Of a DNA stretch of 56,034 bases, positions 12,807 through 15,766 are shown one piece after another. The stretch is from Peptococcaceae bacterium. GTDB taxonomy: Bacteria; Bacillota; DSM-12270; Thermacetogeniales; Thermacetogeniaceae. The notes under the pieces are model-generated. The model was not told the origin of the DNA, searched no databases, and saw nothing but the letters and a program-made list of their open reading frames with translations. The first letter of the stretch is position 1, and every line of letters begins with the position of its first letter. The translations under genes were made by a program, and so were the position numbers. The stretch spans positions 72,618 through 128,651 of the forward strand of contig JAHFCR010000002.1 in assembly GCA_023249405.1 (NCBI GenBank), in the 5' to 3' direction.

Positions 12807-15293
12807 TTATTTGACGACCAGATTCACCAGCTTGCCCGGGACGCAGACCGCCCGGACCAGTGATTTGCCCTGCAGCATCTCCTGCACCCGCTGCTTGGCG
12901 AGAACCACCTGCTCCATCTCCGCCTGGCTGATTCCCGCCGGGACATTCAGGCGGTCACGCACCCGCCCGTTGATCTGTACCACGATCTCCACCTCATCCA
13001 CCACCAGGGCTGACGCGTCATGCTCCGGCCACCGCTGCTGGTGCACACTGCCGCTCTCGCCCAACAACTCCCACAATTCCTCGGCCAGGTGCGGCGTGAA
13101 CGGCGCCAGCAACAGCGCCAGGTCGACCAGGCTCTCCCGCAGCACTGCCCGGTGGCGCTGACCGGCCGGCACCTGTTCCGCATAGTGGTAGATGGCATTC
13201 ACCAGTTCCATGATGGCGCTGACCGCAGTATTGAAGTTAAAGCGGGTACTGATATCCTCGGTCACTTTCAGGATGGCGCGATGGGTCGCCAGACGCAACG
13301 CCCGCTCCTCGGGAGACAGATCTGCGGCACCAGGCCTGATCCGTCCGGCCCCGGCAACCTCGGAGGCGGCGCCCGCCACTAAACGCCAGACCCGGTTGAT
13401 AAACCGGTAGGCCCCCTCCACCCCCTGGTCGCTCCAGTCGAGGTCGCGCTCCGGAGGAGCGGCGAACAGGATGAACAGCCGGGCGGTGTCGGCGCCGTAA
13501 TGCTCGATGATCTCCTCGGGGCTGACCACGTTCCCCTTGGACTTGGACATCTTCGACCCTTCCTTGAGCACCATCCCCTGGGTCAATAAATTGGTGAAGG
13601 GCTCGTCTGCCGGGACCAGACCCAGGTCGTACAGCACCTTCATGAAAAAACGGGAATACAGCAGGTGCAGGATGGCGTGTTCCACCCCGCCGATGTACTG
13701 GTCCACCGGAGTCCAGAAGCCAACCTGATCGCCGGAAAAAGCGTGCTCCTCATCCCTGGGGCTGCAGTAGCGCAGGTAATACCAGGAGGAGCAGACAAAG
13801 GTGTCCATGGTATCGGTCTCCCGCCGGGCGGGGCCGCCGCAGCGGGGGCAGTTTGTGTTGAGAAAATCCTGCGATTTTAACAGGGGTGACTCTCCCGTAG
13901 GTTCGAAGGCCACGTCCAGGGGGAGCATCACCGGCAGATCGGCTTCCGGCACCGGTACGATACCGCAACGGTCGCAATAGACGATCGGAATAGGAGCGCC
14001 CCAATAGCGCTGCCGGGAGATCAGCCAGTCCCGCAGCCGGTAATTGACCTGTTCCTGCCCCTTGCCCTGCCTGGCCAGCAGCTCGATAATCCGCAGTTTG
14101 GCCACCTCGCAGTCCAGGCCGTCGAACTCCCCGGAATTGACCATCACTCCGGGATCAGCGCAGGCCTCGGTCATCACCCGGTCATCCAGGTTCCGCCCCA
14201 GCGGCTGGATCACCACCCGCACCGGCAACCGGTACTTGCGGGCAAAATCCAGGTCGCGCTGGTCGTGGGCCGGCACGCCCATCACGGCGCCCGTGCCATA
14301 CTCCAGCAGCACGTAGTTGGCCACCCAGATCGGGACTCGCTCCCCGGTCAGAGGATGAAGGGCATAGGCTCCGGTGAAGACTCCCTCCTTCTCGGTCTCG
14401 GTGGAAGTTCGATCGATCTCGCTCTGAACCTTCACCCGGTCAACAAACGCCCGCAGGGCGGCGTTCTCCGGCTGCCGCTCCAGCAATTGTTCCACGAAAG
14501 GATGCTCGGGCGCCAGCACCATGTAGGTGACCCCGTAGATAGTATCCGGACGGGTGGTGAACACCGGCAGCAGTGTCCCGTCCTCTGCCTGGAACCGCAC
14601 CTCCGCCCCGGTGCTCTTGCCGATCCAGTTCTCCTGCATGATACGCACCTTTTCCGGCCAGCCCTGAAGCTTATCGAGGTCTTGGAGCAGCCGGTCCGCA
14701 TAGGCGGTGATCCGGAAGAACCACTGGCTCAGGTTTTTCTTGGTGACCAACGTATCGCAGCGTTCGCAGCGGCCGCCCACCACCTGTTCGTTGGCCAGCA
14801 CCGTGGCACAGGAGGGGCACCAGTTCACCGCCGCCTGTTTCCGGTAGGCCAGGCCCCGGTGATAGAGCTGCAGGAACAGCCACTCGGTCCAGCGGTAGTA
14901 GCCGGGATGGCAGGTGGCCACCTCCCGTGACCAGTCATAGCTGACCCCCATGCTTTTCAACTGACGCCGCATGTTGTTGATGTTGTCACGGGTCCATCTG
15001 GAGGGATGGATGCCGTGCTTGATGGCGGCATTTTCCGCCGGGAGCCCGAACGCATCCCAGCCCATCGGGTGCAGTACCGCCAGGCCCTGCATCGTGTGGT
15101 AGCGCGCTACCACGTCTCCGATGGCGTAGTTGCGTACGTGACCCATGTGCAGATTGCCTGAGGGATAGGGAAACATCTCCAGACAATAGAACTTCTGCCG
15201 GGACGAGTCCTCCTTCACCTGGAAGGCATTGGCCTGCTCCCAGCGCTGTTGCCATTTCTTTTCGGCCTGTCGAAAATTGTACCTGCTGTCCAC
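12807..15293 (-). CDS. leuS: Leucyl-tRNA synthetase
   Basis: Class I synthetase of 828 residues that charges tRNA-Leu. It carries the HMGH signature at 49-52 and KMSKS at 581-585, a CP1 editing domain (about 225-415), zinc-type cysteine pairs (CPSC...CERC near 159-179; CPRC near 482) and the anticodon-binding C-terminal half. The GTG at 15293 has AGGGAGG seven bases upstream. An ATG at 15300 is in another frame. Expression should be governed by the T-box leader directly upstream, which carries a Leu specifier codon. Confidence 0.97.
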
Positions 15294-15386: not shown

Positions 15387-15419
15387 AAAAGCTCCCGCCC
15401 TTGCATAGGGACGGGAGCT
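15387..15419 (-). terminator. T-box attenuator terminator of leuS
   Basis: Hairpin AGCTCCCG(T)CCCT / AGGG(C)GGGAGCT with loop ATGCA, followed by TTT-GG-TT. Its 5' arm overlaps the segment expected to pair in the antiterminator, as in standard T-box leaders. The T-run is short. Confidence 0.85.
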
Positions 15420-15457
15420 AAACTTTCCCGCGGTACCACCCGATTTGGCATATTAAT

Positions 15458-15532
15458 TGGTGGAGCTGGTGGGAGTCGAACCCACGACCTCTTCCATGCC
15501 AAGGAAGCGCGCTCCCACTGCGCCACAGCCCC
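15458..15532 (-). tRNA. tRNA-Ala (anticodon GGC), nested in the leuS T-box leader
   Basis: 75 bases including an encoded CCA. The cloverleaf is complete: 7-bp acceptor stem GGGGCTG/CAGCTCC with the G3-U70 wobble pair that marks alanine tRNAs, discriminator A, D-arm GCGC/GCGC with loop AGTGGGA, anticodon stem CTTCC/GGAAG with loop TTGGCAT (anticodon GGC), and T-arm GTGGG/CCCAC with loop TTCGACT. It lies between Stem I and the antiterminator of the leuS riboswitch, same strand. No separate promoter is visible, so it is probably cut out of the leader transcript by RNase P and 3' processing enzymes. Confidence 0.96.
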
Positions 15533-15737
15533 ACATATTTGCCCACTTCAGATCAGTTAACGCCTGCAACGGCACAAGCTCTTCACTTGCGCTGCTCCCG
15601 GGCGAGTTCAACCCCTCGGTGGCCCCGGCTCGCACCCCGTTACGCCGGTTCTCTGAAGGCCTCCCATGCAGGGTCTACTACTCCCGTTCCTTGCATTTAT
15701 CCAAAGTATTTAACTCTCTTCTGATAGGCCAAAGCTA

Positions 15738-15766
15738 ATTATATTGAATTCCACTGCCGCTGTCAA
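15738..15766 (-). promoter_or_regulatory. consensus sigma-A promoter of the leuS leader / tRNA-Ala
   Basis: TTGACA (15766-15761), exactly 17 bases, TATAAT (15743-15738): both hexamers are perfect. Start of transcription is expected near 15731, just before T-box Stem I. The strength fits the need to make a structural tRNA. Confidence 0.92.

Follow-up and report, generated by a model that had tools for sequence, protein, structure and literature searches.

In the window, by which we mean the whole stretch of 56,034 nucleotides analysed here, the gene for leucine--tRNA ligase (leuS, minus strand, 12807-15293) starts with GTG at position 15293 and matches TIGR00396 with 1124.5 bits (cut-off 548.4), and rsfS is the gene upstream at this locus. 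The promoter of the leuS leader (minus strand, 15766-15738) consists of a -35 hexamer TTGACA (15766-15761), a spacer of 17 nt and a -10 hexamer TATAAT (15743-15738), and reading of the sequence gives 12 of 12 consensus positions, as the first-pass annotation had maintained in calling this promoter perfect. The Rfam covariance model RF00230 identified a T-box leader at 15404-15700 (minus strand) with a score of 99.7 bits (gathering score 93) over model positions 1-219 of 219, comprising Stem I, Stem II, the IIA/B region, Stem III with a tRNA insert, and the antiterminator. Stem I with a leucine specifier as well as Stem II had been predicted before, and both are covered by this full-length match; the specifier triplet CUC, located in the specifier loop by sequence and model alignment (15606-15604, minus strand), stands for the same amino acid as the downstream gene leuS.

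ARAGORN called a tRNA-Ala(GGC) at 15532-15458 (minus strand; anticodon 15500-15498), the only tRNA in the window, with A73, an encoded CCA and the G3-U70 pair, whose U70 was read from the sequence, so that the tRNA is as complete as first described. In the RF00230 alignment it appears as a single long insert within the loop of Stem III. The first-pass annotation had placed the tRNA between Stem II and the antiterminator; this order holds, while the exact place is now refined to the inside of the Stem III loop, with model positions 1-219 spanning the insert and aligning on both of its sides, as nesting would have it. On the minus strand, the sequence AAGUG (15548-15544), which fits the RRRxG purine motif, and the Stem III 5' arm GGCAAAU (15543-15537) precede the tRNA, and the Stem III 3' arm AUUAAUAUGCC (15457-15447) and the dinucleotide AA (15446-15445) follow it. 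The window therefore has the RRRxG-Stem III-AA motif, which according to reviews is part of the aminoacylation sensor (accessible text of PMC7583486). The T-box sequence GGGUGGUACCGCGGG starts at 15441 within an antiterminator (GGG / UGGUACC T-box bulge / GCGGGA ... UCCCGU / CCC; 15441-15408, minus strand) delimited by Rfam alignment and fold, and an intrinsic terminator (GCUCCCGUCCC / GGGCGGGAGC + UUUU; 15418-15387, minus strand) was recognized from sequence and fold, its arms lying at 15418-15408 and 15400-15391. The strand 15418-15408 is common to the antiterminator, as 3' strand, and to the terminator, as 5' arm, so that the two structures compete for it, and the UGGU bulge is present; this predicted reuse of one strand is a requirement of a transcriptional T-box. 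The Rfam alignment, the fold and TIGR00396 agree with the earlier order of antiterminator, terminator and leuS.

By every feature examined, the window leader is a T-box, and what it encloses is an ordinary tRNA gene; it is their combination that is the new part of this locus. Like other leuS-type transcriptional T-boxes (RF00230, CUC), the leader has Stem I with the specifier, Stem II, RRRxG-Stem III-AA, the UGGN bulge, the antiterminator/terminator switch and leuS downstream. However, Stem III is a short hairpin in usual T-boxes, whereas in the nested element it carries a complete structural tRNA gene for a different amino acid.

A single-strand energy model of the window leader predicted the acceptor stem and Stem III, and did not predict the textbook cloverleaf. 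In Rfam scans, the nested tRNA (15458-15532 in the window, and its counterparts in relatives) often appears as a sub-threshold tmRNA match because of clan competition, and the T-box call spans the tRNA. The nested tRNA is an annotation blind spot in such scans, and tRNA callers and T-box databases handle the two features separately.

The helix enclosing the tRNA

The two arms that flank the tRNA pair in the predicted fold to form the Stem III helix. Covariation was studied with 107 distinct arm pairs, for which the AGYGG motif and AA served as anchors and no fitting was applied. For pairs 1-7 of the helix, 86% of the combinations were standard, compared with a mean of 69% (highest of 500: 72.5%) when arms were permuted between loci, a control that keeps sequence kinship, and with 42-49% when the arms were slid against each other, which removes it. 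Pair 2 occurred as G-C (55), A-U (36), U-A (2) or C-G (1), and U-A, C-G and G-C variants were found at pair 3. In related genomes, Stem I, tRNA and antiterminator stay one unit, the point on which the first-pass annotation could have failed. Because the helix around the tRNA covaries, T-box and tRNA are parts of one RNA.

Nesting might merely be mimicked by two independent neighbours, for example an aborted T-box followed by a tRNA gene and by a second T-box or a terminator, and tRNA genes beside riboswitches are indeed unremarkable. Yet a single full-length T-box model spans the tRNA and no part of it is duplicated, the helix flanking the tRNA covaries, and the same arrangement is encountered in 27 families of the phylum, so that we give this explanation hardly any credence.

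In the families f8 (L348-L349), f26 (L353-L355) and f64 (L356), the T-box sequence follows the CCA after a very short linker, and hardly any or no Stem III helix is left besides the tRNA. As so short a linker leaves little room, the acceptor stem of the tRNA itself may substitute for Stem III in these cases.

Distribution of the nested element

A search of 40 relatives detected the nested element in most of the window's own family and in distant families. A stringent pattern combining a tRNA end with a T-box was present in 52 of 398 genomes of the window's phylum, and the reversed control gave 0; this conservation excludes chance. When the T-arm of any tRNA was accepted ahead of a T-box, 85 of the 398 genomes matched, about 81 of which, from 27 families, were counted as real by the criterion of a tRNA-like 3' end, and ARAGORN found tRNA-Ala(GGC) in all 47 of these genomes that were run through it. 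Among Chloroflexota, 30 of 301 genomes matched and 27 were confirmed by ARAGORN, all with Ala(GGC), 2 of the 27 having been seeds of the survey. Genomes with names contributed at least 120 loci, including those of Syntrophomonas, Thermosyntropha lipolytica, Carboxydothermus islandicus, Pelotomaculum, Desulfotruncus, Desulfoscipio geothermicus, Symbiobacterium, Orenia, Sphaerobacter and an Armatimonadetes MAG. Nesting thus recurs in dozens of bacterial families from at least two phyla, and altogether 160 distinct nested elements were collected.

Relatives from many families match RF00230 over its full length, often above the gathering cut-off. A leucine specifier could be parsed in 138 nested elements, and it is CUC in 136 of them. 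The promoter is a perfect 12/12 in 66 of 151 elements and in none of 151 shuffled ones. A special promoter resembling that of tRNA genes was considered as a mark of nesting and discarded, the leuS T-boxes without tRNA L193, L323 and L327 having equally perfect promoters. Provided that the contig is long enough, leuS is almost always found downstream, mostly directly and sometimes with one gene between. This gene is acyl-CoA synthetase-like in L049, L068, L076, L117, L118, L125, L131 and others, from Desulfotomaculum-type genomes, and ilvE-like, for an aminotransferase, in L070 of the Armatimonadetes MAG.

No other type of tRNA was found nested in a T-box in the surveys of 398 genomes of the phylum and 301 genomes of Chloroflexota, none of the other ten T-box matches of the window's genome contains a nested tRNA, and matches in the plasmid collection were unrelated tRNA genes only. 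Pattern matches without a tRNA (L035, L089, L099, L263, L266, L279 and L303) were set aside as chance. On a LeuS tree, the label 'nested' needs about 10 changes, compared with 27.5 for shuffled labels; this strong clustering fits, on the tree, either one ancient origin with losses or transfer.

In the window leader, the specifier CUC is followed by GCC, an alanine codon read by GGC, and an overlapping second specifier for alanine was therefore considered. Across the elements the next triplet is GCC (102), GTC (25), ACC (6) or ATC (4), and the idea was rejected because such a spread is expected from the Stem I helix alone.

Copy number of the tRNA and decay of the T-box

All 160 distinct nested elements contain tRNA-Ala(GGC), all 160 have G3, and CCA is encoded in 150. 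The nested tRNA is canonical throughout this set and shows no change specific to nesting. Like ordinary bacterial tRNA-Ala(GGC) genes, it has the same canonical cloverleaf with G3-U70 and A73, a CCA that is mostly encoded, and a single copy; it differs in being transcribed within a regulatory leader that runs into an mRNA, whereas the gene is free-standing in non-nested relatives. In loci L023/L206 (G027) and in the Chloroflexota loci L280, L281 and L283-L285, no complete CCA end is encoded for the nested tRNA-Ala, and a CCA-adding enzyme would therefore be needed there.

Two relatives assembled as single contigs, for which full tRNA lists were compiled, have one tRNA-Ala(GGC) each, among 43 tRNAs in G034 and among 45 in G117. 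In both genomes it is the nested one and tRNA-Leu(GAG) is present. The window's own genome is a draft in which 38 tRNAs were called, with no tRNA-Ala(GGC) besides the nested one, although a second one in an assembly gap is possible; tRNA-Leu(GAG), the expected ligand of the T-box, is absent from these 38. BLAST detected no second tRNA-Ala(GGC) in G005, G027, G040 and G066. Since no other copy exists in the fully listed G034 and G117, the nested tRNA-Ala(GGC) is, on these gene lists, needed by the cell.

Relatives in other states were also found. Where leuS T-boxes occur without a tRNA (for example in G023, G024, G028 and G037), a short hairpin takes the position of Stem III, and in several non-nested genomes, such as G020, G031, G032 and G039, tRNA-Ala(GGC) is free-standing. 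In G001, of the window's genus, a clean deletion has removed Stems I and II, and promoter, tRNA and the antiterminator/terminator region remain; G012 has lost the T-box sequence and retains tRNA and terminator; only promoter, tRNA-Ala, terminator and leuS are left in G057; and in G430 (Chloroflexota) the tRNA-Ala lies immediately upstream of leuS without a T-box. Because these four genomes keep the tRNA and not an intact T-box, the T-box can vanish around the tRNA, which would be expected if the tRNA is essential and the regulation dispensable.

The same four genomes, which are in that state or on the way to it, invite the view that the T-box has become a non-functional relic and that the locus amounts to a tRNA gene and a terminator before leuS. 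As a general account this seems very improbable to us, as most lineages keep the specifier, the T-box sequence, RRRxG-Stem III-AA and the competition between antiterminator and terminator, full-length Rfam scores often exceed the gathering cut-off, Stem III covaries, and true loss of the T-box shows as visible erosion.

The leuS leader of G035 (L201) is a T-box in which no tRNA was called. Its Stem III is unusually long and includes TGATGGCATGG, a sequence similar to a tRNA-Ala anticodon arm, and might be a decayed nested tRNA.

Predicted working of the leader and comparison with known systems

The anatomy, its conservation, the covariation of the enclosing helix, the single-copy status of the tRNA and its persistence where parts of the T-box have been lost are established. 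We interpret them, with a probability of roughly 0.8, as a leuS leucine T-box in which the apical domain of Stem III is a genuine tRNA-Ala(GGC) gene, present in single copy, and whose transcript would be bifunctional, probably giving rise to a working tRNA and to a regulated mRNA. The dual function suggested by the first-pass annotation is still the best-supported reading of the sequence, the nested copy being the sole tRNA-Ala(GGC) of G034 and G117 and the leucine-sensing parts being conserved. Switching of the T-box, maturation of the tRNA from the leader transcript and the order of events are all three inferred, and may be pictured as follows. The leader would be made from one strong promoter, and in the nascent RNA Stems I and II would form first, followed by Stem III topped by the cloverleaf and then by either antiterminator or terminator. 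The CUC specifier of Stem I would read tRNA-Leu(GAG) which, when uncharged, would also contact the UGGU bulge, stabilise the antiterminator and so allow leuS to be read; otherwise, transcription would stop at the terminator. Transcription passes the tRNA before it reaches the terminator, so that every transcript, terminated or read-through, should contain it, and RNase P together with 3' trimming would release the cell's tRNA-Ala(GGC) from the leader. As both ends of a tRNA come together at its acceptor stem, Stem III could accommodate the insert. An early cut by RNase P would part Stem I from the antiterminator, the two then being joined through Stem III only, and therefore either the decision must be faster or Stem III must hold the pieces together. 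How such a switch finishes before RNase P halves the leader is the kinetic question that this arrangement raises.

That cleavage by RNase P necessarily splits the leader in two could also speak for an active part of the tRNA domain in the switch, as a timer or a processing-controlled element, in which excision, modification or charging alters readthrough or the stability of the leuS mRNA and links maturation of tRNA-Ala to leucyl-tRNA synthetase. The strikingly specific pairing points in the same direction, since in some 700 genomes it is always tRNA-Ala(GGC) with a leuS T-box, where the downstream gene is visible, and never another tRNA. However, the nested tRNA is canonical and free of nesting-specific changes, leuS leaders with a T-box only manage without a tRNA, the tRNA outlasts loss of the T-box as a tRNA gene alone would, and the specificity is explained by one origin and by the fact that a tRNA present in single copy is hard to lose; we therefore regard an active role as unlikely. 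Similarly doubtful is the more far-reaching proposal that control of leuS has included the excision or maturation of tRNA-Ala(GGC) from the leader as a fixed step ever since some deep ancestor of these phyla, in a processing-coupled riboswitch with Stem III as clamp or with a delay setting the decision window. If it were true, the supply of one tRNA would be tied to the control of the synthetase for another amino acid.

Mimicry of an uncharged tRNA in cis, by pairing of the CCA end with the UGGU bulge, was considered as well. The ACCA could pair, no support for such pairing was found, and the idea was rejected because the Stem III helix intervenes and because any tRNA would do likewise.

Transcripts in which a tRNA precedes an mRNA, and which give both, are known. 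The nested tRNA differs from these in that a ligand-sensing switch encloses it topologically and a conditional terminator lies downstream of it. T-boxes have been described as having 'curious insertions in every domain' whose role is unknown (accessible text of the review PMC7583486). The nested tRNA is likewise an extra domain, here in Stem III, but it is recognised as a gene that looks functional, and its phylogenetic distribution and covariation are described, and no tRNA insertion is named in the accessible text of that review. The earlier statement that no described precedent was known agrees with the searchable literature, in which, including the accessible text of PMC7778990, PMC2494555, PMC7583486 and PMC4919913, no tRNA inside a T-box leader was found; key older T-box surveys (RNA, 2008; MMBR, 2009) lie outside that scope and priority is thus unproven.

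If the transcript is indeed bifunctional, a tRNA-sensing riboswitch contains a tRNA gene and has been conserved in this form across phyla, a helix of a riboswitch can host an essential gene, and terminated leader RNA, which would otherwise be waste, gains a use. The arrangement is of interest because of the breadth and uniformity with which nesting is conserved. Cultured hosts are known (Syntrophomonas, Thermosyntropha, Carboxydothermus, Desulfotruncus and Desulfoscipio), which makes nesting amenable to experiment.

Two further loci have unusual surroundings. In the complete genome G005 (L010, on contig C1), pieces of group II introns with at least two copies of domains D1-D4 (1-1412) sit directly after the nested T-box leader, at the position expected for leuS, and a c-di-GMP-I riboswitch is located at 2062-2149. 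Elsewhere in the window's genome (G000:C47, 17735-17792 and 17874-18185; L191 and L189), a T-box is followed about 80 nt downstream by a partial T-box match (model positions 161-216), and the pair is possibly a partial tandem T-box.
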